Of a DNA stretch of 15,992 nt, positions 2,266 through 15,932 are shown piece after piece. The position numbers were made by a program, and so were the translations under genes. Source of the DNA: Muribaculaceae bacterium (GTDB lineage Bacteria; Bacteroidota; Bacteroidia; Bacteroidales; Muribaculaceae); contig JAKSMA010000025.1 of the NCBI GenBank assembly GCA_024400895.1, positions 1 through 15,992 of the forward strand, read 5' to 3'. The stretch's first letter is position 1. Every line of letters starts with the position of its first letter. Below the pieces are notes generated by a model. It was not told the DNA's origin. It ran no database searches and worked only from the letters and a program-made list of their open reading frames with translations.

Positions 2266-2304
2266 ATCTATTTTTATTTTAAATCGTCGTTAATTCCTTG
2301 ATTG

Positions 2305-2338
2305 CAAAGTTATTTTTTTTTTTTTTTTTTTAAACAAA
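2305..2338 (-). promoter_or_regulatory. LRR-gene promoter with a 19-T homopolymer as spacer
   Basis: On the reverse strand TTTG (2335-2338) and TAACTTTG (2305-2312) fit the -33 and -7 elements. The 22 bp between them are almost entirely a homopolymer (T on the given strand, 2313-2331, 19 bases). The -7 box is about 40 bp upstream of the LRR start codon. The spacer is slightly longer than the usual 19-21 bp. Confidence 0.6.
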
Positions 2339-2415
2339 ATTATAACCAATAAAAATGCAATCAGTATGAAAAAATGTGACAAATGGAGGCGTTGGGCCTG
2401 AAAAAGTAGGGGAGA

Positions 2416-2448
2416 TTTGGTGGAATTGCAGGAAAATGCTTACCTTTG
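2416..2448 (+). promoter_or_regulatory. Promoter of the cobalamin riboswitch transcript
   Basis: TTTG (2416-2419), a 21-bp spacer and TACCTTTG (2441-2448) form a good Bacteroidota promoter. It lies immediately upstream of the riboswitch, predicting a start near 2456. Confidence 0.7.
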
Positions 2449-2459
2449 TAGCCGAAAAT

Positions 2460-2683
2460 GCGATAGGTTCTTCCGCAAGTGTGGCTTAAAAGTGCCCACG
2501 CTCGCGAAGATCAAAAGGGAATCAGGTGAAATTCCTGGACAGTACCCGCTGCTGTGAGTTTCCGAAATACATATCCGTTTCACACACGATAAGCCACTGG
2601 TGGAATATTCGCTTTTGCGACTACATCATTACCGGGAAGGCGTGAGACGGATGGAAACGAAGTCAGAAGACCTGCCTATACGC
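2460..2683 (+). ncRNA. Cobalamin (B12) riboswitch aptamer
   Basis: The conserved blocks of the cobalamin riboswitch family occur in order: GGGAATCAGGTGAAATTCC, then ACAGTACCCGCTGCTGTGAG, GCCACTGG (2593-2600), CCGGGAAGGCG (2632-2642), and the B12 box AGTCAGAAGACCTGCC (2661-2676). The outer P1 helix can be drawn as GCGATAGG (2460-2467) with CCTATACGC (2675-2683), one A bulged. The family senses adenosyl- or other cobalamins and usually represses B12 uptake or synthesis genes, in this phylum typically btuB-like TonB receptors. No such gene follows here. Confidence 0.95.
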
Positions 2684-2932
2684 AGCCTCAGCCCACAGAA
2701 GGGCTGGTGATGGTCTACGTGGCATTTAGGCCTGGGCGAAAAGAGATACGATGTAGTCGCGAAAAAACCAATTATCAGTTTTTTTCACGATCACCCGTCA
2801 GGAGCATGATGATGGCATTTGAGGTGCCGTCGGTGTGCGTATGTGCGGCTCTGCGCTATTGTGTGAGCGCGGGGGAGGCACAGGTGAGGCTCGAATTAGC
2901 ATCATACAGATTATTATATAGTAACACTGAAG
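2684..2932 (+). ncRNA. Downstream part of the riboswitch transcript, no recognisable protein
   Basis: Between the aptamer and the terminator I recognise no coding sequence. A stem CAGCCC-acagaa-GGGCTG sits at 2690-2706. The segment 2750-2764 is complementary to 2613-2627 inside the aptamer (15 pairs, one of them G-U). The same bases can instead form CGCGAAAAAAC...GTTTTTTTCACG (about 2758-2790), so two exclusive folds are possible. An open frame 2707-2985 exists but runs through the terminator and has no recognisable homology. The segment may be an expression platform left by a lost gene, or a B12-controlled small RNA. Confidence 0.4.
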
Positions 2933-2973
2933 TGGCACCCATCCGTGATAGGACCGGTGCCATTTATTTTTTT
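2933..2973 (+). terminator. Intrinsic terminator of the riboswitch transcript
   Basis: TGGCACC (2933-2939) and GGTGCCA (2956-2962) form a 7-bp stem followed by TTTATTTTTTTTC. It closes the transcript that begins near 2456, giving an RNA of about 520 nt. Confidence 0.8.
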
Positions 2974-3066
2974 TCTTCTTTTTGAGGGGCAACGAGTCAA
3001 TGAGTCAACGAACTTTTTGGACTCAGTGGAAAGTGGTGCGCAAGACTCACAAAAACCGAGAAAACC

Positions 3067-3196
3067 CCTTGTGGAGGGTGGGTGCTGAAGCACCTGGCTG
3101 TATGAGTGCATGATTTTCCTTGTGAGCAAGCTCCCTGACAAAATCACACACTCATCCCACCACCTTCCTTGCGGAAGGCCACCACCCTCCGCAAGG
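3067..3196. repeat. 130-bp nested inverted repeat, MITE-like intergenic element
   Basis: Outer arms 3067-3081 and 3182-3196 are complementary at 14 of 15 positions (CCTTGTGGAGGGTGG against CCACCCTCCGCAAGG). Inner arms 3102-3117 and 3140-3155 are complementary at 14 of 16 (ATGAGTGCATGATTTT against AAAATCACACACTCAT). Smaller perfect hairpins sit between them: GGTGCT/AGCACC (3081-3094) and CCTTCC-TTGC-GGAAGG (3163-3178). No open frame in it looks real. Layered palindromy of this kind fits a non-autonomous mobile or REP/MITE-like element, though no target-site duplication was identified. The nearby 2985-3066 stretch holds only a small inverted repeat, TGAGTC/GACTCA (3001-3025). Confidence 0.5.
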
Positions 3197-3258
3197 CGAT
3201 AAATAATAATAAACATTTCTGCTACCCACCCCATAGTAGTCACCCCCAGGGGTGGGTC

Positions 3259-3298
3259 GGAGCGCTCGGAGTTCTCGGAGCGCTCTGGGTTCTCTGAG
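3259..3298. repeat. Nonamer repeat GGAGCGCTC/GGAGTTCTC
   Basis: Four consecutive 9-base units: GGAGCGCTC (3259-3267), GGAGTTCTC (3268-3276), GGAGCGCTC (3277-3285), TGGGTTCTC (3286-3294), then TGAG. A related patch, CTCGGAGTTCTCTGAAATCTCTGAG, lies on the other side of the next gene at 4936-4960. Confidence 0.7.
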
Positions 3299-3303
3299 AT
3301 TTT

Positions 3304-3359
3304 CTAATTTCTAACATCTAACATCTAACATCTAACATCTAATTTCTAATATCTAAATT
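3304..3359. repeat. Heptamer tandem repeat (CTAACAT)n
   Basis: Eight 7-base units in register: CTAATTT, four exact CTAACAT (3311-3338), CTAATTT, CTAATAT, CTAAATT. The array ends about 33 bp upstream of the -33 element of the DUF1846 gene. It is a simple microsatellite with no spacer structure, not a CRISPR. Confidence 0.85.
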
Positions 3360-3391
3360 CTTTTTTCTGAAATCTTTTTTTGGTTGGCGTA

Positions 3392-3422
3392 TTGGTAAAT
3401 CGTGAAAATTTTCGTAAATTTG
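3392..3422 (+). promoter_or_regulatory. Promoter of the DUF1846 gene
   Basis: TTG (3392-3394), 20 bp, then TAAATTTG (3415-3422). The -7 box lies inside the frame that would be translated from an ATG at 3402, so it supports the downstream start at 3450. Confidence 0.65.
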
Positions 3423-3449
3423 TATCCCGTATTTAAGTGGTATCAAATT

Positions 3450-4916
3450 ATGAAATACGGCTTCGACAACGACAAATACGTCAAAATTCAATCAGAACAC
3501 ATCAAGGAGCGAATCGCTCAATTCGGTAACAAACTCTACCTCGAACTCGGGGGTAAACTCTTCGACGACTATCATGCTTCTCGCGTGCTGCCTGGCTTCA
3601 AGCCCGACAGCAAACTCGACATGCTTCAGCAGCTCAGCGACAGTGCTGAAATCGTGATTGTGATTAGCGCTGTGGACATTGAGAAGAACAAGGTGCGCCA
3701 AGACTTGGGCATCACCTACGATGTGGATGTGCTTCGCCTGCGCGACGAGTTTATGAAGCGCGGCTTCCTGGTGAGCAGCGTGGTGATTACCCACTACAAC
3801 GGGCAGAACAGCGCCGACGCCTACCGCCAGAAGCTGGAGCGCCTCGGCATTCGCTCGTTCTACCACTACACCATTGAGGGCTATCCCAACAATGTGGAAC
3901 TCATCGACTCGGATGAGGGCTTCGGTAAGAACGACTATGTGGAAACCACACGTCCGCTGGTCATCGTTACGGCCCCTGGCCCCGGTAGCGGCAAGATGGC
4001 GGTGTGCTTGAGCCAACTCTATCAGGAGCACAAGCGTGGCGTGACCGCAGGTTATGCTAAGTTTGAGACTTTCCCTGTGTGGAGCCTCTCGCTGAAGCAC
4101 CCGGTGAACATTGCCTACGAGGCAGCCACTGCCGACCTCAACGATGTGAACATGATTGACCCATTCCATTACGAAGCCTACAACAAGATTGCCATCAACT
4201 ACAATCGCGATGTGGAAATTTTCCCAGTGCTCAATGCGCTGTTTGAAGGTATCTACGGCGAAAACCCATATAAGTCGCCTACCGATATGGGCGTGAACAT
4301 GATTGGATTCTGTATCAGCGACGATGAGGTGTGCTGCGAGGCGGCGAAGGATGAAATTATCCGCCGCTATTTCACGGCGCTCAACGAACTGGCTGAAGGC
4401 GGTGGCAACGACAGCGAAGTGAAGAAAATAGCACTGCTCTTTAAGCAGGCCAATATCAACACCGCCTACCGCAAGACCACTGTGGCTGCTCGCGAGCGCC
4501 GCGAGCAATCGCTGGGCAAACCTACAGCTGCCATCGAATTGGTGGATGGCACTATCATCACTTCGGAGCAGAGCGATTTGCTCGGCCCAAGCGCTGCACT
4601 CATCCTCAACGCCACCAAGCATCTGGCTGGCATTGACCATGGCAAGAAACTGATACCCCAGAGCATGATTGAGCCGATTCAGCACACCAAGATAGAATAC
4701 TTGCGAGGACGCAACCCCCGCTTGCACACCGATGAGGTGCTGGTGGCGCTTTCGGTGCTGAGTACACAAGACGAGGACTGCCGACGCGCACTCGAGGTGC
4801 TGCCGCAGCTCTACGGATGCCAAATGCATAGCACTGTGATGCTCAACGAAGTGGATCGCAAAATTTTCCGCAAACTCGGCGTGGGCCTTACCTGCGACCC
4901 AAATCGCAAGAAATAG
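3450..4916 (+). CDS. DUF1846 family protein
   Basis: 488 residues from the ATG at 3450, beginning MKYGFDNDKYVKIQSEHIKE. This opening, the VLPGF.PD..LDML segment, ITHYNGQ (113-119) and the glycine-rich APGPGSGK loop (175-182), followed by AVCLSQLY, are the features by which I recognise DUF1846. The length fits the family's roughly 490-500 residues. It is a soluble cytoplasmic protein with no signal peptide or membrane segment. The biochemical role of the family is unsettled; the GPGSGK loop suggests binding of a phosphate-containing ligand, which is inference. An in-frame ATG at 3402 was not used because the -7 box lies downstream of it. The gene stands alone between repeat-rich spacers. GC and codon use look native and highly biased, which produces a long but meaningless open frame on the opposite strand. 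Confidence 0.88.
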   Translation: MKYGFDNDKYVKIQSEHIKERIAQFGNKLYLELGGKLFDDYHASRVLPGFKPDSKLDMLQQLSDSAEIVIVISAVDIEKNKVRQDLGITYDVDVLRLRDEFMKRGFLVSSVVITHYNGQNSADAYRQKLERLGIRSFYHYTIEGYPNNVELIDSDEGFGKNDYVETTRPLVIVTAPGPGSGKMAVCLSQLYQEHKRGVTAGYAKFETFPVWSLSLKHPVNIAYEAATADLNDVNMIDPFHYEAYNKIAINYNRDVEIFPVLNALFEGIYGENPYKSPTDMGVNMIGFCISDDEVCCEAAKDEIIRRYFTALNELAEGGGNDSEVKKIALLFKQANINTAYRKTTVAARERREQSLGKPTAAIELVDGTIITSEQSDLLGPSAALILNATKHLAGIDHGKKLIPQSMIEPIQHTKIEYLRGRNPRLHTDEVLVALSVLSTQDEDCRRALEVLPQLYGCQMHSTVMLNEVDRKIFRKLGVGLTCDPNRKK

Positions 4917-5172: not shown

Positions 5173-5204
5173 TTTGTGTTGCGCATATTTATTCTTTATA
5201 TTTG
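5173..5204 (+). promoter_or_regulatory. Promoter of the FGE-like gene
   Basis: TTTG (5173-5176), a 20-bp spacer and TATATTTG (5197-5204) match the Bacteroidota consensus. The predicted leader is about 80 nt. The rest of the 4917-5290 gap holds the two repeats above and no credible gene. Confidence 0.75.
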
Positions 5205-5290
5205 CAATTGATTGAAAGAAAGTAAATGGAAGCGAGTCTGATGATTTAGCCTTCGCGCACAGCAAATGAAAGAATTATATGCATAGCCAA

Positions 5291-6274
5291 ATGAAAAAAT
5301 TGTCAACAATCCTTTTGTGCACAACGATGTGGGTGGAGTGTGCCTTCGCCCACGGCGCTTTGGCTGGCATTTCGGAGAAATCTGTTTATGATATAAATGG
5401 CGATGCTGTGGTGAATGTGGGCGATGTGGCACAACTGATTACATATGTGACGGATCCCGCTTCCGGATTTCCTGAAGCCGTGAATGAGCAGTATCGTGCC
5501 ATGGTGAGTATGGAACCAGGTGTTTTCGGCATGGGCGCATCGTGGGAACAGAAGCGCTATGCTATGGAAAATGAGCGTCCGCTACACGATGTCACGCTAT
5601 ATCCCTTCAGCATTTCGAGTCACGAGGTGACACAGGCTTTGTGGGAATGTGTGATGGGCAACAATCCCAGCGAGCACGTAGGCAAGAATCTACCTGTTGA
5701 AAATGTGGCATACGATGAATGTGAAATGTTCGCGGAGCGATTGCGCGCACTCACGGGCATCAACTACCGTATGCCCACCGAGGCAGAGTGGGAATACGCA
5801 GCTCGTGGAGGGATGTATAGCGGGTTTTTTGTGTTCAGTGGTGGCGAAGACCCGTATGAAGTGGCTTGGTTTAGCGACAATTCCGGCGGTCACACTCACC
5901 CGGTGTGCCAACTTGCGCCAAACGAAAAAGGCCTCTATGACATGGGCGGAAATGTGGCGGAATGGGTTGTCGACCGATATGCAACCTACAGCGATGCCCA
6001 TCAAACCAATCCTGTAGGTCCTCAAGAAGGAAGCAATAATTGTGTGATTCGTGGCGGCTCGTGGAGCGACGGCTATGCCGATTGCCGCACCACCCGAAGA
6101 AAGTCGATGTATAAGTATTATTTTTCGCCCACAGTGGGCCTGCGCCTTGTCATCGACAGGGACGACTACAACCACACACCTGAGTATTTGATTGGCTACG
6201 ACGTGAATGGCGATGGGCTGCTGAATGTGACCGATATCACCACACTGATTTCTGTGGTGCAGGATGATATGTAG
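5291..6274 (+). CDS. Secreted SUMF1/FGE-like domain protein flanked by single dockerin-type repeats
   Basis: 327 residues from the ATG at 5291 (MKKLSTILLC...), with a signal peptide of about 20 residues ending CAFA. The in-frame ATG at 5279 would put polar residues before the signal and is less likely. Residues 33-52 (YDINGDAVVNVGDV) and 303-323 (YDVNGDGLLNVTDI) each form one calcium-binding dockerin-type repeat with D-x-N-x-D-x3-N-x2-D. Between them (about 68-297) is a formylglycine-generating-enzyme/sulfatase-modifying-factor fold: SSHEVTQALWE, NLPVENVAYDE, YRMPTEAEWEYAARGG, GLYDMGGNVAEWV, RGGSW, VGLRLV. In true FGE the catalytic pair lies after the GGS motif; here R254-GGSWSDGYAD-C265 keeps only the second cysteine and has Asp at the first. 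Oxidase activity is therefore doubtful; a structural or glycan-binding role is more likely. It has its own promoter. Confidence 0.85.
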   Translation: MKKLSTILLCTTMWVECAFAHGALAGISEKSVYDINGDAVVNVGDVAQLITYVTDPASGFPEAVNEQYRAMVSMEPGVFGMGASWEQKRYAMENERPLHDVTLYPFSISSHEVTQALWECVMGNNPSEHVGKNLPVENVAYDECEMFAERLRALTGINYRMPTEAEWEYAARGGMYSGFFVFSGGEDPYEVAWFSDNSGGHTHPVCQLAPNEKGLYDMGGNVAEWVVDRYATYSDAHQTNPVGPQEGSNNCVIRGGSWSDGYADCRTTRRKSMYKYYFSPTVGLRLVIDRDDYNHTPEYLIGYDVNGDGLLNVTDITTLISVVQDDM

Positions 6275-6431
6275 CGCGCGCACACAGAACTTGCTCTGTC
6301 ACGGCAATACGCATCTAAATACGGAGAAAAACGCACATTTTCCAACGGGCATAGGGACGCCTATGTGGACGAAAGATAGCACAAATCAGCCTATGAGAAA
6401 CAAAATATTGCCATTTGCTCCTAATGAACTT

Positions 6432-6461
6432 TTTGGGTTTAAAAAGAAAACCTTAACTTTG
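6432..6461 (+). promoter_or_regulatory. Promoter of lgt
   Basis: TTTG (6432-6435) and TAACTTTG (6454-6461), spaced 18 bp, lie 30-59 bp before the lgt start. The 216-bp gap before lgt otherwise shows only weak hairpins: ACAGA/TCTGT at 6284-6299 and CATAGG/CCTATG at 6350-6365. Confidence 0.6.
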
Positions 6462-6490
6462 TAGCCAAATTAACAGATAACATATTTTCA

Positions 6491-7363
6491 ATGCTCGATT
6501 TTATTACATGGACCGCGAGTCCCGACATCTATAGTGGCTTCGTCACCGTGCGCTGGTACGGGCTGATGTTTGCCATCGGTTTCTGGTTTGGCTACGAAGT
6601 GGTTTGGCGCGAATTTCGTCACGAAGGCGCACCCGAATCGTGGGTTTCGAAACTCTTTATTTACGTGATTGTTGCCACTGTGGTGGGCGCTCGCCTGGGG
6701 CATGTGCTGTTCTACGACTGGGCCTACTATAGCCAGCACCTTTCCGACATCCCCAAAATTTGGGAAGGCGGACTGGCGAGCCATGGCGGTGTGCTGGGCA
6801 TCATGATTTCGATTTGGCTCTATAGCAAATTCGTGACCAAGCGCCCGATGCTCTGGACATTCGACCGCGTGGTGGTGCCAGTGGGCGTGGTGGCAGCCCT
6901 TATCCGTATGGGCAACCTCTTCAACCACGAAATCTATGGTGGTCCCACCGATTTGCCTTGGGGCTTCCGATTCATTGAAAACATTCCTCAATTCCTACAC
7001 TGCGCAGAAGCACGCTTCACCGCACCTTGTCATCCAACCCAGATTTACGAGGCGCTGGCATATCTGCTCACTTTCGCAGTGGTGATGTGGCTCTACTGGA
7101 AGCGCAACGAGCAGGAGCGCCCCGGATTGATTTTCGGCACATTTATGCTGGGCATTTTTGGCGCCCGCTTCTTGGTGGAATTTGTAAAGAATGTGCAAGA
7201 GCCTTGGGAAATCGAAATGCGCGCCATGTGTGGCATGGACATGGGTCAATTGCTCAGCATCCCATTCATCGTGCTCGGCATTTGGCTCATAGTGAGAGCG
7301 CTCCGTCGCCCCCGCGTGGCACTGGAATACCCGGGCAAATTCGCCGACGAAAACAAAAAGTAA
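6491..7363 (+). CDS. lgt: Prolipoprotein diacylglyceryl transferase
   Basis: 290 residues, the normal family length. Lgt transfers diacylglycerol from phosphatidylglycerol to the lipobox cysteine of prolipoproteins, the first step of lipoprotein maturation, in the inner membrane. Visible landmarks: RWYGLMF (21-27, the conserved Tyr), GLASHGG (94-100, His98 equivalent to E. coli His103), the Lgt signature RMGNLFNHEIYG (139-150, with Arg139, Asn145 and Glu147), HPTQIYEA (181-188) and ARFLVEFVK (225-233, the conserved C-terminal Arg and Glu). About seven hydrophobic segments span the sequence. A strong hairpin terminator follows at once, so it is monocistronic here. All recognised key residues are present and an active enzyme is expected. 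Confidence 0.97.
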   Translation: MLDFITWTASPDIYSGFVTVRWYGLMFAIGFWFGYEVVWREFRHEGAPESWVSKLFIYVIVATVVGARLGHVLFYDWAYYSQHLSDIPKIWEGGLASHGGVLGIMISIWLYSKFVTKRPMLWTFDRVVVPVGVVAALIRMGNLFNHEIYGGPTDLPWGFRFIENIPQFLHCAEARFTAPCHPTQIYEALAYLLTFAVVMWLYWKRNEQERPGLIFGTFMLGIFGARFLVEFVKNVQEPWEIEMRAMCGMDMGQLLSIPFIVLGIWLIVRALRRPRVALEYPGKFADENKK

Positions 7364-7383
7364 GCAATTTTAAATAAAGAGAT

Positions 7384-7430
7384 AAATCGTGGCACTTCTA
7401 CATGCAAAAGAATGTGCCACGATTTTTATT
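7384..7430 (+). terminator. Intrinsic terminator after lgt
   Basis: AAATCGTGGCAC (7384-7395) and GTGCCACGATTT (7414-7425) form a perfect 12-bp stem with an 18-base loop, followed by TTATTT. The A-rich left flank could allow some reverse-strand termination too. Confidence 0.88.
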
Positions 7431-7482
7431 TCCATGTTTAAACTTTTGGAAGGGAAAGTTATCTATAAAGCGGAAAATTAAT

Positions 7483-7490
7483 TATATTTG
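7483..7490 (+). promoter_or_regulatory. -7 element of the lipoprotein operon
   Basis: TATATTTG fits the Bacteroidota -7 box, 36 bp before the start codon. No convincing TTTG lies about 20 bp upstream, so the promoter may be weak or activator-dependent. Confidence 0.5.
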
Positions 7491-7526
7491 CAAAAGTAAT
7501 AACTAAATAGAACAAAGTGAACCGAC

Positions 7527-8570
7527 ATGAATAGAGTTTTCGTCTTAAGCCTCGTGGTTTTGGTTTCGGCCATGACACTGGCATGCAAAAGTACAAAGAG
7601 TGATAGTGAAAATTCCGCAAGCGAGCAGCAAGTGGCTGTGAATCTTTCCGAAGTGCCATTTCTCAAAGCCATCGGGCTGGATGTGAGCAAAGTGGCAATT
7701 GAGAAGGATTTTAGCACAGCTGGTGTTTTTGAAACAGAAGGTGCAGATCCGAAAGGCGTGATGCTGAATGAAAAGCAGCGTGAAGCGCTTCTCGACGATG
7801 TGCCTATGGTGGATTTTGACGAAGGTGGCGGCCCATTTATCGTGGGTGCAAAGGCGTTTGCCGACAATGTGCTGCTCGTGTACTGGCACGAAATGGGCGA
7901 TGGCCATGAAATAATACTTGTCAGTTACAACAAGGATGGCAAGTTGAAAGATGTAGTCACCACTCCTTCGTGGGAATACACCATGCCATGGGATGGCGAG
8001 GAAGCTGTGCAAACCGTGTGTTACGACTCTTGCCACGCCACCTTTAGCGCCGATAGCTTCGTGCTTCACCGCACTGTGGGCCGCGATGCCGGCAAAAATC
8101 CGGTATGGAGCCAAAAGCGCGACTACACCTACACTGTGAATGCCGATGGCACAATGCGATTGGCAAAAGTTGATGCACAGCCTCTGAAGGGCACCCAGTC
8201 AGAAAAATTTGGCGATCACACTCCTGAAGCGCATACCATCTACGACGTGGACTATTACCCATACTCCGACCAAGGACTGTTTGAGAATTTCGACAAACTG
8301 GCAGGGAAATATTTCAAAAACAACAAACTCAAAGAAGATTTGATGAGCATGGTGGTGCGTATGATGTACAGCCGTGAAGAGTTGCTGCTCCAGTATCTGG
8401 GCACCCATCGCCAGTCGGCCATCACCGAGGTGCTTCACCAGTGCATCAGAGAGGAATGGTGGCAGAAAAGCGAACTCTATGAAGATATTCAAGAGATGCC
8501 TGAAGGCGATTCCAAGAAATATCTAAACGAACTCACCGCCCAATGGGGACCTGATGGAGCGGTAGGATGA
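7527..8570 (+). CDS. Hypothetical lipoprotein, first of a tandem paralogous pair
   Basis: 347 residues. The N-terminus is a lipoprotein signal (MNRVFVLSLVVLVSAMTLAC) with Cys20 as the probable lipidation site, although the lipobox T-L-A-C is not ideal. A Ser/Lys/Glu-rich linker follows, then a soluble domain. I do not recognise the family. It shares blocks with the next gene: PFLKAIGLDV near the N-terminus, DSFVLHRTVGR, VWSQKRDYTYTVNADG in the middle, and an almost identical C-terminus, LTAQWGPDGAVG. The region from about residue 260 on is helical and charged. The ATG at 7527 gives an intact signal and sits just after a -7 box. With the next gene 32 bp away and no terminator between, the two form an operon. 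Probably an outer-membrane or periplasmic lipoprotein; function unknown. Confidence 0.8.
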   Translation: MNRVFVLSLVVLVSAMTLACKSTKSDSENSASEQQVAVNLSEVPFLKAIGLDVSKVAIEKDFSTAGVFETEGADPKGVMLNEKQREALLDDVPMVDFDEGGGPFIVGAKAFADNVLLVYWHEMGDGHEIILVSYNKDGKLKDVVTTPSWEYTMPWDGEEAVQTVCYDSCHATFSADSFVLHRTVGRDAGKNPVWSQKRDYTYTVNADGTMRLAKVDAQPLKGTQSEKFGDHTPEAHTIYDVDYYPYSDQGLFENFDKLAGKYFKNNKLKEDLMSMVVRMMYSREELLLQYLGTHRQSAITEVLHQCIREEWWQKSELYEDIQEMPEGDSKKYLNELTAQWGPDGAVG

Positions 8571-8602
8571 TAACGATGAATCAAAAAATACAAAAATAGA
8601 CA

Positions 8603-9586
8603 ATGAAGAAAAATTTATTTTGCCTGGTGGCACTCATGCTGATGGCTTTGCCAGGCGTTGCGCGAACGCAATTTCCATTCCTTGATGCACTCGACCTGGA
8701 TGTTACACCGGTTATAACCAGCGGTGCGACCACCGTGAGCACATCGTCGATATCAGAAATAAGAGTGAAACTCACCACCGACCAGTCGGAGAAACTTTTG
8801 GGCGGTTTGGATAACTATGAAAACGAATACGATGGTGCAGGCATACACATCGCTCGCAAAATTGCCGGTGGCAATTTCTTGTTGCTCTTCCGCGTTCCTT
8901 ATCCCGATGGCGACCTGACATATCTGGTCACTTACGACAAAGCAGGCGTGATGATTGACTATATCAACACCAGCGATTGGTGCCAAGACGAATACTTCGA
9001 TTTGGAAAATGATTCATACATAATGTATGACATGAAGTGGGGCGAATTTAAGGATGCCGACAAATTCGTGCTTCATCGCACCGTGAGCAGAACAACACCT
9101 GCTGAAGTGGGAAATCCGAAGGAACTGTGGAGCCAACAGCGCGACTACTACTATTCTGTTGACGCCAACGGGTTCTTCACTCGCGAAAAAATCGTCGTTG
9201 GCAAGGTGAAGGGCAAAAAATATACGAAAACCGACCTCGTGACGATTGATTTGGACGAATTCACTTGCTATGTGCCAAAGTCGGCAAAGGGACTGGTGGG
9301 AAATCTGCACCAACTCTGCCTCGCGAAAGACGCTCCAGGCGATATCCACACAATGTTCTCCTATGTGGCTGCCGCACTCTACAGAGGCAATAAAATGGAA
9401 GTGCTCAACTTCATCTACAGCAATCCTAAGTCGCCAGTGGTGGGCTTGCTGGAATTTGCTGTGAGCGATGGCAATATCGAAAAATATGACCTGTATCAGG
9501 CCATTGCGGCGCTCCCTGATGGCAAGCAAAAGACTGCGCTACACAAACTTACAGCCCAGTGGGGACCTGCTGGAGCAGTGGGATAA
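8603..9586 (+). CDS. Hypothetical secreted protein, second of the paralogous pair
   Basis: 327 residues with a signal peptide of about 20 residues (MKKNLFCLVALMLMALPGVA) and no cysteine in lipobox position, so it should be soluble in the periplasm or exported, unlike its lipoprotein neighbour. Shared blocks with the upstream protein: FPFLDALDLDV (24-34), DKFVLHRTVSR, LWSQQRDYYYSVDANG and the final LTAQWGPAGAVG. Elsewhere the two have diverged strongly, so the duplication is old. The C-terminal AQWGPxGAVG, kept to the last residue in both, suggests a functional tail such as a binding or sorting signal; this is inference. No known domain recognised. A terminator follows at 9621. Confidence 0.8.
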   Translation: MKKNLFCLVALMLMALPGVARTQFPFLDALDLDVTPVITSGATTVSTSSISEIRVKLTTDQSEKLLGGLDNYENEYDGAGIHIARKIAGGNFLLLFRVPYPDGDLTYLVTYDKAGVMIDYINTSDWCQDEYFDLENDSYIMYDMKWGEFKDADKFVLHRTVSRTTPAEVGNPKELWSQQRDYYYSVDANGFFTREKIVVGKVKGKKYTKTDLVTIDLDEFTCYVPKSAKGLVGNLHQLCLAKDAPGDIHTMFSYVAAALYRGNKMEVLNFIYSNPKSPVVGLLEFAVSDGNIEKYDLYQAIAALPDGKQKTALHKLTAQWGPAGAVG

Positions 9587-9620
9587 AATAGGCTATCGAC
9601 TGTGTGTTGAAAATATTAAT

Positions 9621-9661
9621 CGCACCCGAGTCTTTTATTAGGCTTGGGTGTGTGCTTTTTT
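9621..9661 (+). terminator. Intrinsic terminator of the paralogue operon
   Basis: CGCACCCGAGTC (9621-9632, the G at 9622 forming a wobble pair) pairs with GGCTTGGGTGTG (9641-9652) through 12 pairs including three G-U, around an 8-base loop, followed by TGCTTTTTT. Confidence 0.75.
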
Positions 9662-9685
9662 CAAGCAATAAAAAGTGCCTACTTC

Positions 9686-9716
9686 TTTGGTGTGCGCGGT
9701 TTTTTTAGTAAATTTG
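9686..9716 (+). promoter_or_regulatory. Promoter of the DUF4919-like gene
   Basis: TTTG (9686-9689), 19 bp, then TAAATTTG (9709-9716), 35 bp before the start codon. Confidence 0.75.
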
Positions 9717-9750
9717 CAAGACAAAATTAATTGCGACAAACCCATTAATC

Positions 9751-10383
9751 ATGGACAAGAATATGATGGATTACAAAGCTTCCGAAGCTTTCGTAAAAGA
9801 AAATAGACCTCAGTTTGACGCTCTCGTGCGCCGTTTCGCGGCTGCCGACACCTCGCTCACTGCAGAAGAATTGGCAAAAGTGTACTATGCTTCGCCTTTC
9901 GCTGGATTTGAGCCTCTTGCCGACCTTGTGAAGACCGCCAACCAACTTTATCGTATTCGCGACTACCGCGTGGCCTACTATATGTATCGCGACGCCCTCG
10001 TTGCCGACCCTCTCTCTTTGCTCGTGATGAAGAAGGCTGCCAACTGCAGTTTCTTTGCAGTGATCGACAGTAATGCCACAGCCGACCTTCGCGCTCGCGT
10101 GAAGATGCTCCAGGAGGTGATTCTCGCCACTGGCGATGGCGCAACCCCAGCCACTGCATTCCACGTGGTGCAAACCAGCGATGCTTACCAGGTGCTCTGG
10201 GATGCCATTGGCGTGAAAGATGTGCTGAGCTGCGACGTTGTGGCCACTGAGAACGGCGTGTCGGTCGACGAACTGCTCGTGCAGGTGCGCGACGAAAAGG
10301 AACCTCGCAAGGTGTATGTGGCTTGCTACGGTGAAACCGACGACGACCGTGCCGACTTCTTCATTCGCAAGAAGGGCTTCTAA
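9751..10383 (+). CDS. DUF4919-like protein
   Basis: 210 residues, no signal peptide or membrane segment, so cytoplasmic as read. The order FDALVRRFAAADTSLTAEEL, VYYASPFAGFEPL, then a TPR-like helical stretch RIRDYRVAYYMYRDALVADPLSLLVMKKAA, resembles the DUF4919 family found mostly in Bacteroidota. The C-terminal half contains HVVQTSDAYQVLWDAIGVKDVLSCDVV and a short beta-type tail. The function of the family is unknown. It has its own promoter. No clear terminator separates it from the flavoprotein gene 109 bp on; the gap between them carries only an imperfect -7 box (TAACTTTC at 10477-10484). Family assignment is from memory of the motif order and is moderate. Confidence 0.6.
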   Translation: MDKNMMDYKASEAFVKENRPQFDALVRRFAAADTSLTAEELAKVYYASPFAGFEPLADLVKTANQLYRIRDYRVAYYMYRDALVADPLSLLVMKKAANCSFFAVIDSNATADLRARVKMLQEVILATGDGATPATAFHVVQTSDAYQVLWDAIGVKDVLSCDVVATENGVSVDELLVQVRDEKEPRKVYVACYGETDDDRADFFIRKKGF

Positions 10384-10492
10384 ATTTTTTTGATAAGTAA
10401 AAACGCTTGTATGGTGCGAATGTGGCTACGTGAGCGCTTGTCGCGAGTAAAGGCAGTTTTTTCGCATATGTTTAATTAACTTTCGGACGTCA

Positions 10493-11071
10493 ATGAAAAT
10501 TCTAATTCTAAACGCCAGCCCGAGGCCAAACGGGAATATATCAAAAATGCTTGATGTGATTCGCCAGGAGTGCGAAAACATGCAGGCAGAGGTGGAGATG
10601 GTGCGTGTGCAGGACTTGAATGTGCGACCATGCATGGCGTGTATGAAATGCCGCAGCACGCATGAGTGTGTGTTGCCCCCAGATGATGCCCAGCGAATTT
10701 TGTCGCTCATCCAAGAGTCGGATGCCCTTGTGGTAGGCGCACCTTGCTATTGGGGCAATATGCCAGGCACCCTCAAGTTGCTTTTCGACCGTATGGTCTA
10801 TGGCATGATGGGGGAGAACAGTTTGGCTATTCCGCAGCCCATGCACAAGGGTAAGCGTTGCTATCTCGTGAGCGCTTCGAGCACGATGTGGCCATTCAAC
10901 ATCCTTGCAAATCAGACCCGTGGCGTGGTTCGCGCCCTCAAGGAAATACTCGGTTGGAGCGGTTTTAAATGCGTAGGCACAATCCAGAAGGCCGGCACCT
11001 TCCGCCATCCAGAATTCACCGACCGCGATCGCCGCAAATGCATCCGAGCCGCCCACCGCATCATGAAATAA
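10493..11071 (+). CDS. Iron-sulfur flavoprotein / flavodoxin-fold NADPH-dependent FMN reductase family
   Basis: 192 residues of flavodoxin-like fold. MKILILNASPRPNGNISKML (1-20) is the FMN-phosphate loop, and GAPCYWGNMPGTLKLLFDR is the second conserved FMN-binding region. A compact cysteine cluster C47-x2-C50-x2-C53-x5-C59 matches the [4Fe-4S] motif of the Isf family, so the protein probably passes electrons between an iron-sulfur cluster and FMN. The physiological partner is not evident; Isf-type proteins in anaerobes are linked to electron transfer and oxidative-stress relief. The ATG at 10493 starts directly at the first beta strand of the fold. Standard length; no oddities seen. Confidence 0.88.
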   Translation: MKILILNASPRPNGNISKMLDVIRQECENMQAEVEMVRVQDLNVRPCMACMKCRSTHECVLPPDDAQRILSLIQESDALVVGAPCYWGNMPGTLKLLFDRMVYGMMGENSLAIPQPMHKGKRCYLVSASSTMWPFNILANQTRGVVRALKEILGWSGFKCVGTIQKAGTFRHPEFTDRDRRKCIRAAHRIMK

Positions 11072-11129
11072 CTCCTGGCAGCATAATAATCACCTAATTT
11101 TTCAGTTTTGTTTCAAAAAGGCTGTAAGT

Positions 11130-12173
11130 ATGATGAATCAAGAGCATTTAGGAGAGCACCGAAAAGTTGCCGCTCCAAGTTATTCTGAAGAACCATCAAT
11201 AGTAATATACACTAATGAAGACAACGGTGTTCAACTTGATGTGAAGTTGGAAGGTGAAACTGTGTGGCTGAGTCAGCAGCAGATGGCTAGACTATTTGAC
11301 ACCACACCCCAGAATATTACGATGCACATTCGTAATATATATAAAGTTGAAGAATTGAAAAAAAATGCAACATGTAAGGAATTCTTACAAGTTCAGCATG
11401 AAGGTCATCGAAGTGTTGCTCGAAACATGAAATTTTATAATCTTGATTTAATAATTTCTGTGGGTTACAGAGTAAACACAAAGCGTGGTATTCTTTTTAG
11501 ACAGTGGGCGACTTCGATTCTCAAGGATTACCTAATTAAAGGGTTCGCTATCAACCAGAAGTTGAAACTTGAGAGGTATCAAGAGCTCAAGGGGGTGGTG
11601 CGCTTGATGGGACGGACAATATCTTTGCAAGAAAAACTTTCTTCCGATGAATATGATGGACTGTTTAGTGTGATTGGCGACTATGTTTATGCTCTTGACA
11701 CGCTTGACCATTATGATTATCAAGACTTGTCAATAGATAAAATTACTAATTCATGTAATTTTCGTGCGACATACGAAAATGCTATGGAAGTGATCGGGCG
11801 CCTGAAGGAAAAGTTTGGAGGTAGTGCCTTGTTTGCCAACGAAAAAGATGATTCATTCAAAAGCTCAATTGGTCAGATTTATCAAACTTTTGATGGGGTA
11901 GACTTGTATCCAAGTGTGGAAGAAAAAGCTGCAATGTTGCTATATTTGGTCGTGAAAAATCATTCGTTCAGCGACGGAAATAAGCGTATTGCTGCTATGC
12001 TGTTTTTGTGGTTTCTGCACAACAATGGCGTTCTTTATGGGGATGATGGACATAAGCGAATCGCCGACAACACTCTCGTCGCCATCACGCTGATGATAGC
12101 AGAAAGTCGTCCTGTAGAGAAGGATATTATTGTGAAAGTAGTGGTTAATCTTATCAATCAAAATAATCAATAA
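11130..12173 (+). CDS. RhuM-family protein with C-terminal Fic/Doc domain
   Basis: 347 residues. The N-terminal half (about 22-135) is a virulence RhuM domain: VQLDVKLEGETVWLSQQQMARLF, NITMHIRNIYK, FYNLDLIISVGYRVNTKRGILFRQWA. The C-terminal third carries H278-S-F-S-D-G-N-K-R286, the Fic/Doc active-site motif. It has the Doc form (NKR) rather than the AMPylator form (GNGR); Doc with this motif phosphorylates EF-Tu, so phosphotransfer rather than AMPylation is the better guess. I saw no obvious inhibitory-helix motif or adjacent classical antitoxin. The gene is more A/T-rich than its neighbours, which fits horizontal acquisition. ATGs lie at 11130 and 11133; the first was taken, the second is equally possible. 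The stop codon overlaps the ATG of a small membrane ORF (TAATG). Likely a toxin or phage-defence effector. Confidence 0.88.
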   Translation: MMNQEHLGEHRKVAAPSYSEEPSIVIYTNEDNGVQLDVKLEGETVWLSQQQMARLFDTTPQNITMHIRNIYKVEELKKNATCKEFLQVQHEGHRSVARNMKFYNLDLIISVGYRVNTKRGILFRQWATSILKDYLIKGFAINQKLKLERYQELKGVVRLMGRTISLQEKLSSDEYDGLFSVIGDYVYALDTLDHYDYQDLSIDKITNSCNFRATYENAMEVIGRLKEKFGGSALFANEKDDSFKSSIGQIYQTFDGVDLYPSVEEKAAMLLYLVVKNHSFSDGNKRIAAMLFLWFLHNNGVLYGDDGHKRIADNTLVAITLMIAESRPVEKDIIVKVVVNLINQNNQ

Positions 12174-12392
12174 TGACACGTAATAGCGATTACATTTCTC
12201 TAATTATGGGCTTGTTGGCGTTGATAATTTCGTTATCATTCTTCAACTGATTCCGTGGGGCACTTTAATGATAAACTGGCTGGGACATCTCTATATTATA
12301 TGGTTAGTTATTGGTCTGTCACAATGTCGTTAGTAGTCTGCTTGATTATCTGTCGGAAATATAGAAAGAAAAAACAACCTAATAAAAAATAA
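12173..12392 (+). pseudogene. Small two-span membrane protein, apparently frameshifted
   Basis: ATG at 12173 overlaps the RhuM-Fic stop and reads MTRNSDYISLIMGLLALIIS then LSFFN and a stop at 12248-12250 (25 residues, one hydrophobic span). One base out of that phase, a frame opens before this stop and continues as STDSVGHFNDKLAGTSLYYM, then VSYWSVTMSLVVCLIICRKY and a basic tail RKKKQPNKK, ending TAA 12390-12392. Joined near 12240-12248 they would give about 72 residues: span, loop, span, positive tail. Either a one-base frameshift broke one gene, or the pieces are separate micro-ORFs (the second from ATG 12300, 30 residues), or the shift is programmed. The end lies one base before the next gene. 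Function unknown; a partner or antitoxin-like role for the Fic protein is speculation. Confidence 0.45.
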
Positions 12393-12393
12393 T

Positions 12394-12855
12394 ATGGAAC
12401 AAGAAGTGAAGCTCAACGCGCACAATAAGCAAGAGTTTCCTCCAATGCACACCGCAGAGCACATTCTCAACGGCACAATGGTGAAAATGTTTGACTGCGG
12501 TCGGGCAGTGAGTGCTCATGTGGAGCGCACCAAGTCGAAACTCGATTATGATTTTCCTCGCGAACTCACGGCAGAAGAAGTTGCCGCCGTTGAGGCCCGC
12601 GTCAACGAGGTGATTGCTGCCGATATGCCGGTCACTTACGAGTTTGTCTCTCAGCAAGATGTGGCGGAGCGGTTCGATTTGATGCGACTTCCAGATAATG
12701 CTTCCGAAACGGTGCGAATCGTGAGCATTGGCGACTACGACCACTGCCTGTGCGCTGGCACCCATGTGGAGCATACAGCCGAAATAGGCACCTTCCGCAT
12801 TTCAAGCACTCGGTTTAAGGATGGGCGTTTGCGCATCGTTTTCCGCCTTGGTTGA
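12394..12855 (+). CDS. Stand-alone alanyl-tRNA editing protein (AlaX type)
   Basis: 153 residues, matching the second additional (editing) domain of alanyl/threonyl-tRNA synthetases without any synthetase. The zinc-binding set is complete: H19-TAE-H23 within MHTAEHILNGTM, and C120-AGT-H124 within CLCAGTHVEHT. The final segment, IGTFRISSTRFKDGRLRIVF, is also typical. Such proteins hydrolyse mischarged tRNA, most often Ser-tRNA(Ala), in trans. The length fits the small AlaX class. The start is one base after the stop of the small membrane ORF, so translation may be coupled to the RhuM-Fic unit; no separate promoter is visible in the preceding 30 bases. Specificity (Ser- or Gly-tRNA(Ala)) cannot be told from what I see. 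Confidence 0.87.
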   Translation: MEQEVKLNAHNKQEFPPMHTAEHILNGTMVKMFDCGRAVSAHVERTKSKLDYDFPRELTAEEVAAVEARVNEVIAADMPVTYEFVSQQDVAERFDLMRLPDNASETVRIVSIGDYDHCLCAGTHVEHTAEIGTFRISSTRFKDGRLRIVFRLG

Positions 12856-12863
12856 AAATAGGA

Positions 12864-12893
12864 TTGGCGTTTCGCAAAAAATCATTATTTTTG
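12864..12893 (+). promoter_or_regulatory. Promoter of the MscS-family gene
   Basis: TTG (12864-12866), 19 bp, then TATTTTTG (12886-12893), 26 bp before the start codon. It begins just past the alaX-like stop, so there is no room for a terminator between the genes and read-through is possible. Confidence 0.6.
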
Positions 12894-12918
12894 CATATCA
12901 GATTTTTACGGTAATTTT

Positions 12919-15744
12919 ATGATGAAGAAAATTCTATTTATTTTTTGTGCCATTTTGCTGGCCTTGCCATCGAAGGCTGTCCTGAGCGAAAAAAACCTTG
13001 ATGAGGCGCTGAAGGTGCTCCGTGGCGAACTTGAGCAGGCTATCAAAAAGCAGCAGCAGAATATGGCACATTATAAGCAATATAATGAAAGCCAAAAGCT
13101 GACGCTGAAGGAAACGATGGAGCACTGCGGTGAAGTGTCGTTGATGCTATATTCGCAAAACCAAGACTATGTGTTCGACCTCACTTACGCTTGTAATGAG
13201 GCCACACAGCTCTACCGCGATTTTACCACGACCAACAAAAAACCGTACGACCTTATCAATGCGCGAATGAACAACGAACTTCAGCGCTATGATGGCTTGA
13301 TTTTTAGCTTAAAATGCTTGCCGCCAGCGCTGATTGAATTCAAAGGGAAGCGTAAGTTCCACACTCCCGACACGCTTTCGCTCGCAGCTCAGGCCGATCG
13401 TGCTGCCTGTATCAAATATGCTATGAAACTTCGGGATAATATCGAGCAATCTCAAAGTATGATTACGGCCGACAGTACCGCTTTCGCGCGCGTGTCGGCT
13501 ATTTTGGGTAAACTTGATGAATATGCGAAGAAGCGCTACGATGATATCCAAAGTTCGATTTTCCGTAATAATGGAAGCAACTATTTCGTGATTTTAGGCA
13601 ACCTCAAGCGTAATGTGGCTCGCGCCATGCTTGATGTGTCGAATAAATACAATTTGGGCAACGAACACCGCTTCGCTAAGAGTCAATGGCGTGGCTCTGT
13701 GATTATTGGCTTCGTTGGCTTCGTGGTGTTCTACCTCGTTTTGTCGCTTCTGCTGGGCTATCTGCTGGTGCGTGTTCTTTATCATTTCTTGAAGCGAATG
13801 AAGTGGGCAACCGCTGCCACTGACGAGATTCGCGCTGCGCGAATAGCCAAGATGAATAAAATCAAGCCGGCAATCATGGTTGCATTTGCTGCGTTGATTT
13901 TTGTTGTCACTATCATGGTGCTCAATCGCCATCTCTACAACAACTTTTTCATCATGGCGTCGCACCTTCTGGTCGATTATGCGATGCTGCTGGTGGCTAT
14001 CACTTTCTCGTTGTTGCTCCGTTTGCGTTACAACCAGATGTCGCATGGTTTTCGCGTGTATATGCCAATGCTGGTTTTGGGCTTGGTCATTATATTGTTC
14101 CGTATCGTGTTCATCCCAAACAGCGTTGTCAATCTCATTTTCCCTCCTGTCGTTCTGCTCTTTCTTGTTTGGCAATGGCGGGCTGTCCGTAAGCACACAG
14201 GCAAGTTGCGACAGAGCGAAATCATTGTTGGTGAGGTAGAGCCTGACGCCGATGGTGATGACGACGACGACGATGACGACGACGACGATGGTCTCCTTGA
14301 AGAAGAAAGCGAGGCTAAAGAGCGAAGAAAAGAACGTGCCATCAAAAAGCAGATTGAAGGTCTTGTTGCCGACGATACACTGGTGGCGAAAGGGCTGGCT
14401 TCCATTCTCAGAGTTCGCAAGAAGAAACCATCGGATAGTGATGTCAGCGATCCGCTCTCCGAACACAATAAATTGCCACACACCGACCTCGTTTATGCTT
14501 GGCTGTCTTTTGCTGTAATTCTGGTTGCCACGTTGCTTACATGGTCGGGACGTACATTGATGTCGGTTGAGGTGGTGATTTGGTGGCTGTTCCAGCTCAC
14601 GGCCATTCAGGCCTTGATTGCAGTATTCCGTTTGCTGGATATTTACGAAAAAGCGCGCCTTTACGACTCGCTGCGCGACAGCGGAACAAAAGTCAGCGAA
14701 ATTGCCAAAGGACTACGGGAGGGCGACTATGTCACTCGCACATGGTTCTTCGATTTCGTACACATGGCGCTTGTGCCTATCACCGGAGCATATACTTTAT
14801 TGATTAGCTTCTGGCTCGCAGCCGATGTCTTTAATCTCGCCGACACCTGTCGCGACTTTTTCCTGTATAATTTCGTCGACATTCCAAATGTCGTACAATT
14901 GTCTATCGCTAAGTTAGTCGTCATCGCGGCTTCCTTCTTCGTCTTCCGATATCTCAACTATCTCTTTAAGGCGCTTTTCAGAATCTATAGCTATCGACGC
15001 CACCGACTCAAGACCGGTAAAGAAAAAGTACGCACCAACGAAATCAACCTCACCTTGGGATATAATGTGATTGGCATTCTCGTTTGGGGCCTTTTCGTGA
15101 TTCTGGCTTTCATTTTGCTCAAGATTCCAAAATCTGGCATTTCGCTCGTCACGGCTGGTTTGGCAACCGGTATCGGTTTTGCGATGAAGGACTTGCTCAA
15201 CAACTTCTTCTACGGTATTTCGCTCATGGCCGGACGCCTTCGTGTGGGCGACTGGATTGAGTGCGATGGCGTGCAGGGTAAGGTGGAGAGCATCACATAT
15301 CAAAGTGTGCAAGTCATTACCACTGACAACTGTGTGATGTCGTTCTTGAACTCCACTTTGTTTGCCAACAATTTCCGAAACCTCACGCGCAACAATTCCT
15401 ATGAATTGATAAAAGTGCCTGTTGGCGTTGCCTATGGGGCCAACGTAGAGCATGTGCGTAAGGTATTGCGCGAAGCGCTGCTTGAATTGCAATTCACCGA
15501 CAAGTATGGCCGCAATGTGATGGACATGAACAACGGGCACGATGTTTTGGTGATGTTCGACAGTTTTGGCGACAGCAGTGTAAACTTAAATGTAGCCATT
15601 TGGGTGCTTGTGGTTGAGAAAATCAAATTTGTTGCTCGTGTGAAAGAAGTGATTTATCAAACCCTGCAAGCCAACAACATCGAAATTCCATTCCCGCAGC
15701 AGGATGTTTATATCAAAGAAATTCCTGCCGAGCAAAAGGAATAA
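12919..15744 (+). CDS. Large MscS-family mechanosensitive channel
   Basis: 941 residues (940 if ATG 12922 is used). A signal peptide (1-20, ending PSKA) is followed by a periplasmic, largely helical domain to about 255. Membrane segments lie near 258-290, 316-335, 342-370, 381-399, 402-420, 524-545, 549-573, 611-636, 659-690 and 711-735. The pore helix is GISLVTAGLATGIGFAMKDLLN (740-761). Then comes the MscS beta domain: RLRVGDWIECDGVQGKVESI (773-792), TTDNCVMSFLNSTLFAN and NFRNLTR, and the cytoplasmic cage. It resembles large MscK/MscM-like members and would open under membrane tension to release osmolytes. A cytoplasmic loop between spans carries 11 consecutive aspartates (447-457) and a Lys/Glu-rich stretch, which is unusual. 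It has its own promoter and terminator. Confidence 0.92.
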   Translation: MMKKILFIFCAILLALPSKAVLSEKNLDEALKVLRGELEQAIKKQQQNMAHYKQYNESQKLTLKETMEHCGEVSLMLYSQNQDYVFDLTYACNEATQLYRDFTTTNKKPYDLINARMNNELQRYDGLIFSLKCLPPALIEFKGKRKFHTPDTLSLAAQADRAACIKYAMKLRDNIEQSQSMITADSTAFARVSAILGKLDEYAKKRYDDIQSSIFRNNGSNYFVILGNLKRNVARAMLDVSNKYNLGNEHRFAKSQWRGSVIIGFVGFVVFYLVLSLLLGYLLVRVLYHFLKRMKWATAATDEIRAARIAKMNKIKPAIMVAFAALIFVVTIMVLNRHLYNNFFIMASHLLVDYAMLLVAITFSLLLRLRYNQMSHGFRVYMPMLVLGLVIILFRIVFIPNSVVNLIFPPVVLLFLVWQWRAVRKHTGKLRQSEIIVGEVEPDADGDDDDDDDDDDDGLLEEESEAKERRKERAIKKQIEGLVADDTLVAKGLASILRVRKKKPSDSDVSDPLSEHNKLPHTDLVYAWLSFAVILVATLLTWSGRTLMSVEVVIWWLFQLTAIQALIAVFRLLDIYEKARLYDSLRDSGTKVSEIAKGLREGDYVTRTWFFDFVHMALVPITGAYTLLISFWLAADVFNLADTCRDFFLYNFVDIPNVVQLSIAKLVVIAASFFVFRYLNYLFKALFRIYSYRRHRLKTGKEKVRTNEINLTLGYNVIGILVWGLFVILAFILLKIPKSGISLVTAGLATGIGFAMKDLLNNFFYGISLMAGRLRVGDWIECDGVQGKVESITYQSVQVITTDNCVMSFLNSTLFANNFRNLTRNNSYELIKVPVGVAYGANVEHVRKVLREALLELQFTDKYGRNVMDMNNGHDVLVMFDSFGDSSVNLNVAIWVLVVEKIKFVARVKEVIYQTLQANNIEIPFPQQDVYIKEIPAEQKE

Positions 15745-15774
15745 GCAAAAGAAACAATCATCCTTATATATATA

Positions 15775-15817
15775 ATGTGTGTGGGCGCCACCCGGCATCC
15801 CCACACACATATTTTTT
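15775..15817 (+). terminator. Intrinsic terminator of the MscS gene
   Basis: ATGTGTGTGGG (15775-15785) and CCCACACACAT (15800-15810) form a perfect 11-bp stem with a 14-base loop, followed by ATTTTTT. Confidence 0.88.
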
Positions 15818-15856
15818 GCGCCCTCCAAAAAATCCCACACCAAAAAAGCCGCCGTT

Positions 15857-15876
15857 CCCGCCGGTTTTCCGGCGGG
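15857..15876. repeat. GC-rich perfect hairpin before the last gene
   Basis: CCCGCCGG, loop TTTT, CCGGCGGG: an 8-bp all-GC stem. On the reverse strand it is followed nine bases later by TTTTTT, so it may terminate transcription arriving from the right; on the + strand it lies upstream of the predicted promoter. Confidence 0.5.
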
Positions 15877-15901
15877 TAATTCGCAAATTCCCCTTTTGCT
15901 C

Positions 15902-15932
15902 TTGACTTCCCGCCCTCCATCCCTTATCTTCG
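15902..15932 (+). promoter_or_regulatory. Possible promoter of the last gene
   Basis: TTG (15902-15904), 20 bp, then TATCTTCG (15925-15932), one base off TAnnTTTG, 27 bp before the ATG at 15959. Confidence 0.45.

Follow-up and report, generated by a model that had tools for sequence, protein, structure and literature searches.

A cobalamin riboswitch transcription unit without a gene in a Muribaculaceae genome

The window analysed here (the whole 15,992-nt stretch of DNA from a Muribaculaceae bacterium) exhibits an element that is, judged by its aptamer and its kissing-loop complementarity, a cobalamin riboswitch without the usual neighbouring gene. With a probability of about 0.58, we consider this element to be an emptied B12-uptake transcription unit, the gene of which has been lost. 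The original operon would have encoded B12 capture proteins (BtuG-like or of the DUF4465 type) under a cobalamin riboswitch. Its coding part would have been lost and promoter, riboswitch leader and terminator retained, so that transcription would now run from near 2455 to near 2972 and give an RNA of about 515 nt that contains no gene. Once the aptamer has bound a cobalamin, base pairing of L5 with L13 would be expected to disrupt an alternative hairpin at 2757-2790. The start codon to be shut off being absent, such switching would have no obvious output at present.

The element and its surroundings

The element's host is a 2.18-Mb draft genome in 261 contigs, with a completeness of 67%. The only other cobalamin riboswitch found in it lies on another contig and precedes an intact B12 operon, which encodes a 274-aa protein without Pfam match and a BtuG-like DUF5074 protein. 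The following features were identified in the window.

2416..2448, plus strand: predicted Bacteroidetes-type promoter, matching the pattern TTTG-N21-TACCTTTG; same pattern in the sister genome G043
2463..2679, plus strand: cobalamin riboswitch aptamer (RF00174; 84.6 bits, E 5.3e-20, gathering score 31.5)
2613..2627, plus strand: L5 strand of the kissing loop, TTTTGCGACTACATC; pairs without interruption with 2750-2764 over 15 positions, counting G-U
2680..2914, plus strand: non-coding stretch by alignments and lack of Pfam match, with a leader hairpin carrying ACGTGGCATTT in its loop region, the L13 region and a spacer of about 120 nt
2750..2764, plus strand: L13 strand of the kissing loop, GATGTAGTCGCGAAA; in part also able to form a hairpin at about 2757-2790 instead
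2810..2837, minus strand: fragment in inverse orientation, similar to DNA that encodes the C-terminal tail (YTDGTS) of B12-uptake and other secreted proteins (24/27 identity at best)
2915..2925, plus strand: 3'-end motif TATATAGTAAC, common to B12-riboswitch transcripts of the genus
2930..2975, plus strand: terminator hairpin and T-run, by fold; hairpin 2930-2965 with an internal loop and the internal motif ATCCGTGATAGGACCGG
3392..3422, plus strand: predicted separate promoter of the DUF1846 gene (TTGG, 19 nt, TAAATTTG)
3450..4916, plus strand: DUF1846 gene (PF08903 and PF20921), the next gene downstream

The first-pass annotation of this DNA, made without database searches, had proposed a promoter, a cobalamin aptamer, a stretch without recognisable gene, an intrinsic terminator and a DUF1846 gene with a promoter of its own, and each of these was borne out. 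The promoter pattern at 2416-2448, which we take to be the Bacteroidetes-type consensus, would turn up by chance 0.03 times in 1,150 nt of base-shuffled sequence, and a transcript start is accordingly predicted near 2455. A sigma-70 scanner, the coverage of which does not extend to this promoter type, returned 2 sites for 1.8 expected. The covariance search with the Rfam model gave RF00174 as the sole match at threshold within the whole window, and scanning of positions 2300-3450 for weaker Rfam matches gave no credible one; a further RNA family of Rfam in the 3' part was rejected accordingly. The L5-L13 kissing loop is described as a feature of the cobalamin riboswitch class in passages of PMC9600662. 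The 15-pair match of the window was reached by none of 50 shuffles, in a test of complementarity only; across the genus, 49 of 142 aptamers beat all 50 shuffles in this test and 93 do not. The alternative hairpin competing with L13 is A-U rich, and the terminator scan found no terminator there. From these features, the element would be expected to be transcribed and to bind its ligand.

No credible gene was found between the aptamer and the DUF1846 gene. A 92-aa frame at 2707-2985 crosses the terminator and has no Pfam match, and was rejected as a gene; its search against 5.8 billion proteins gave one match among three candidates, a 57-aa frame in what seems to be a further copy of this DNA. 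The frames of 91, 100 and 120 aa listed by script for the window, G043 and a third genome with a similar unit (G004) were discounted since they run through the terminator. A hidden short protein was likewise rejected, the frames in such gene-less units having nothing recognisable in common. The terminator itself is indicated by the fold of 2905-2975 (-21.7 kcal/mol, z -4 against base shuffles). A simple terminator scanner missed its hairpin and reported one other site for 1.2 expected.

Downstream, no B12-related gene stands under the riboswitch before position 3450, where DUF1846 begins with its own promoter. The same promoter type precedes DUF1846 in the related genome G042, whose two riboswitches are on another contig, and the gene appears not to depend on the riboswitch. 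Between the element and DUF1846, positions 3257-3375 contain tandem repeats of short units (TCGGAGCGC and TCTAACA).

Gene-less units in the genus and the loss of a gene

The riboswitch model was searched against the window's own genome and 62 further ones of the 101 genus genomes, and gave 185 matches (90 + 95) in the 62. The DNA downstream was assessed for 142 distinct aptamers of the genus, some of them from genomes outside the 62. An open frame starts within 400 nt of 137 of them (these frames were only partly domain-checked; two odd-looking ones are CobA), one is cut by a contig end, and four are gene-less; gene-less units devoid of the 3' motif may occur in the remaining 38 genomes. For comparison, passages of PMC11575231 report four predicted cobalamin riboswitches in Xylanibacter ruminicola KHP1, two of which are directly upstream of annotated cobalamin transport or synthesis genes.

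The four gene-less units are those of the window, its sister species G043, G004 and G033. The aptamers of the last two score 102 bits each. The promoter pattern is present in all four, in G004 with a looser TTGC, and the L5-L13 match beats 50 of 50 shuffles in the window, G043 and G033 and 49 of 50 in G004. All four terminate in TATAGTAAC and a hairpin carrying ATCCGYGATWGGACMGG. The features next downstream (DUF1846, methyladenine glycosylase, tRNA-Asp) have no relation to one another, and a separate promoter pattern precedes each. A phylogenetic analysis of the leaders places the window with G043 (support 1.0), among leaders of BtuG-type operons (0.75), and G004 in another group (0.94); G033 clusters with three genomes carrying the gene type discussed below (G063, G092 and G012; 0.998). 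Since window/G043, G004 and G033 fall in separate groups, the gene-less units probably have three origins; this count and the grouping of the window come from one quick tree of leaders.

Gene loss is directly visible at one of these loci. Between G033 and G063 the leader is 83% identical over 366 nt and the 3' end is identical at 67 of 67 positions; what lies between the two is 108 nt in G033 and a 6.2-kb gene in G063. The gene is intact in G063 (2,070 aa) and in G092 (2,071 aa). The neighbourhoods of G033 and G063 are alike, with an upstream gene 59% identical, a tRNA-Asp in both and a cytochrome bd subunit II 96% identical. Thus a gene has been cleanly lost at the G033 locus. The missing gene type is that of a surface protein with a DUF4465 domain, reported as B12-binding in passages of PMC13398666. 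Because this leader and 3' end enclose an intact gene in G063 and G092, we interpret gene-less units as emptied B12-uptake units.

For the exact locus of the window we infer the same event. The first-pass annotation had offered two possibilities, loss of a btuB-like gene or cobalamin control of a regulatory RNA. Loss as such, direct at the sibling locus, is supported at the window by the BtuG-type grouping of its leader, by the shared 3' end and by the inverted scrap of tail-coding sequence; the gene lost need not have been btuB. This scrap is inverted, hence no simple leftover of a deleted gene, which weakens the support for an emptied unit.

That annotation had also named, as a finding that would speak against it, a relic, recognisable by a btuB-type gene at this very spot in close relatives and by decaying sequence in the window. 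No relative with a gene at the exact spot was found. Between the LRR gene (a leucine-rich-repeat-type gene upstream of the element in the window) and DUF1846, G042 carries a Sel1-repeat gene and no riboswitch element; the public contig L033 was equated with G042 for this purpose on the strength of matching DUF1846 coordinates. In G043 the element adjoins a partly matching upstream stretch, and the contig ends 54 bases past the hairpin motif; a further G043 contig, which takes up the match at window position 5186, opens with sequence that differs. It is possible that the element has the same location in both genomes. No decay is visible in the window element: aptamer, promoter, kissing-loop match and terminator are intact. 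Over 2361-2647, the window and G043 differ at 72 of 294 aligned columns, and the aptamer scores are equal (84.6 and 83.7 bits). Intact parts at such a divergence are more than expected of a dead remnant, which tells against the emptied-unit reading.

The shared 3' end, the inverted fragment and the rival explanations

The main rival is that the element is a cobalamin-controlled regulatory RNA, with its 3' portion as the working part. We regard this as a serious minority reading, clearly less probable than the emptied unit, which we rate best. It comes in two variants, and either may apply: the antisense stretch at 2810-2837 would pair with mRNAs coding for YTDGT-type tails, or the TATATAGTAAC-hairpin end would act as a decoy for a factor binding the ends of B12-uptake mRNAs. 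In its favour, promoter pattern, aptamer, kissing-loop match and terminator have been kept in units of probably three origins, and the 2361-2647 divergence described above has come about without loss of aptamer score.

The 3' end bears on the decoy variant. The hairpin motif ATCCGYGAYNGGACNGG is rare, an exact copy being present in 8 of the 101 genus genomes. Four copies belong to the gene-less units and three close intact B12-riboswitch transcripts (in G042, G063 and G092). The last, in G012, follows a gene of the same type as in G063, which a contig end separates from its leader on another contig. The motif with a preceding AGTAAC was found in 7 of 397 family genomes, all seven within the genus, most but not all members of which were in that sample. 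That four of the eight motif units are gene-less, among 142 aptamers, has a chance of 4e-6, or 8e-5 when window and G043 are counted once, which counts in favour of the regulatory RNA; in G033, however, the motif is probably inherited. The sequence TATATAGTAAC was found 41 times in 14 genomes, its reversed control 33 times. When combined with a hairpin of -18 kcal/mol or lower, it marks 11 of 11 riboswitch-linked sites (window and G043 included) against 1 of 19 others, in a comparison of 30 of the 41 sites with a cut-off picked post hoc and labels given by hand from riboswitch positions. This too favours the regulatory RNA. A general 3'-end motif of all genes was rejected as an explanation of TATATAGTAAC, given its concentration at B12 transcripts. 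No description of this shared 3' end was met in titles and abstract openings among the papers listed on cobalamin riboswitches together with noncoding RNA in Bacteroides, with Prevotella, or with small and intergenic RNAs.

In leaders of the CobA type (L227, L238, L274, L277, L280 and L174), some 200 non-coding nt separate the aptamer from TATATAGTAAC or a near variant of it, after which come a hairpin and then the gene; the unit from aptamer to hairpin is about the size of the gene-less elements. Two further cobA leaders (L228 and L241) have no TATATAGTAAC-type motif ahead of the gene.

The antisense variant derives from the inverted fragment, of which the first sign was a 13-mer of the spacer recurring in the LRR gene at 1070-1082. 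Read in reverse, 2810-2836 encodes HTDGTSNAI and is identical at 24 of 27 positions to the tail-coding stretch of a protein of G082 (tail QPFAGLNIIVTRYTDGTSSAVKVIR), with an alignment score of 21, against 14 at most for 480 control blocks of the same genes. The plus-strand RNA at 2810-2837 is accordingly antisense to mRNAs with such tails. The longest antisense run (G-U allowed) between the window spacer and 37 distinct tail-coding segments from genus loci has a mean length of 13.1 nt. The controls stayed below this, with a highest mean of 10.3 nt when other blocks of these genes were drawn 20 times and of 10.2 nt for 40 shuffled spacers; the test was devised after the 13-mer had been noticed. 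The run reaches 17 nt with the neighbouring LRR mRNA and 13 nt with one gene of the genome's own B12 operon.

This excess supports a regulatory RNA, but the post hoc nature of the test counts against it, as does the behaviour of G004 (9.2 nt) and G033 (10.0 nt), which lack the fragment and stay within the gene-block controls. Also unfavourable are the duplex tests with four start regions (z +0.9, -2.6 for BtuG, -0.6 and +0.6) and the search for a 12-mer antisense to the own B12 operon, which found none. The fragment allows two readings, as an inverted leftover from the end of a gene or as a site through which a B12-controlled RNA acts in antisense; its being a remnant would accord with the emptied unit. 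A combination of the two, in which an emptied B12-uptake operon has turned into a B12-sensing antisense RNA, one RNA under riboswitch control, with the 3' end of B12 transcripts, addressing many tail-coding mRNAs including those of B12 uptake and the LRR protein, appears rather improbable.

Similar C-terminal tails, GVNIVVTTYTDGT for instance, are carried by the LRR protein (1042-2265), by B12-operon proteins and by other proteins of the genus (L126; L132), and this shared tail is perhaps a sorting tag. The LRR gene is flanked by a short direct repeat (1020-1036 and 2363-2378, with a CAGTATGAAAAA core). G043 has a single copy of the repeat beside the element and no LRR gene there, which implies gain or loss of the LRR gene between the repeats.

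The first-pass annotation had named conservation across strains as a possible sign of function. Over 2648-2958 the window and G043 are identical at 308 of 311 positions (P 4e-16 in a binomial test, fourfold sites differing at 41 of 302). The letters are identical at the inverted fragment, and the sole difference within 2681-2958 is at position 2866. However, an identity this high is not exceptional: in two sliding-window comparisons it is attained by 1,271 of 5,666 windows (22%) and 1,798 of 8,724 (21%), which removes this support for a regulatory RNA. Stretches of 98-99% identity alternate with stretches of about 88-96% between window positions 5186-15926 and the G043 contig C90, a mosaic that points to recent recombination. 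The idea of an ultraconserved RNA was dropped for both reasons. Phage origin was also rejected, one phage record matching over 51 bases and a search of viral contigs with an exact 29-mer giving nothing; a single viral match to the 3' motif was judged to be chance, 1,500 of the 5,848 bases of that record having been inspected.

There is little to recommend a third explanation, in which 2930-2965 is the terminator of a long-range attenuator and read-through in the absence of B12 feeds DUF1846. A precedent can be seen in G072 (contig C48, locus L203), where an aptamer is followed by TATATAGTAAC and a T-tailed hairpin at +207 and by a TonB-receptor-type gene at +352, possibly a riboswitch attenuator. 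DUF1846, however, begins 475 nt past the terminator with a promoter of its own, as it does in G042, where no riboswitch is present at this place, and the unrelated next features of the other gene-less units, with their own promoter patterns, fit attenuation poorly (in G043 the contig ends too early to tell). An assembly artefact, by which the element was misjoined to the DUF1846 contig, is about equally improbable: the draft is fragmented and the G043 contig stops shortly after the motif, but G004, a single-contig genome, has a gene-less arrangement of the same kind, and so does G033 in the interior of a contig.

Known B12-controlled RNAs and the fate of a riboswitch without its gene

The emptied unit that we favour is closest to the leaders of Bacteroidetes B12-uptake operons (btuB/btuG/btuH/btuJ loci), with which the element shares the aptamer family, a kissing-loop match and a related leader and 3' end; it differs from them in having no gene behind it. 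Passages of PMC8079631 describe, in Listeria monocytogenes, a B12 riboswitch heading the non-coding transcript AspocR (Rli39). The window riboswitch, as far as its sequence tells, likewise heads a non-coding stretch. The antisense target of AspocR is pocR, and this RNA exists in two lengths, 1,400 nt and a truncated 230 nt, whereas the window exhibits one recognised terminator and a short candidate antisense stretch. In Listeria, a B12 riboswitch also controls the stand-alone RNA Rli55, according to passages of the same source (PMC8079631). Rli55 sequesters EutV via an ANTAR element past its regulated terminator; the window holds no Rfam family beyond the aptamer. The eut RNA of Enterococcus is similar to Rli55. 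Having one recognised terminator and no proven target, the window element is not filed with AspocR or Rli55.

Riboswitches are usually treated as tied to the gene that they control. Gene-less units of probably three origins in a single genus raise the question whether an RNA that senses a metabolite may persist on its own after its gene has gone, for which G033 without the gene, and G063 and G092 with it, offer a ready comparison. The inverted tail-coding piece suggests a route by which a remnant may become a multi-target antisense RNA. Independently of this, the TATATAGTAAC-hairpin 3' end that B12 transcripts of this genus share can be put to the test.
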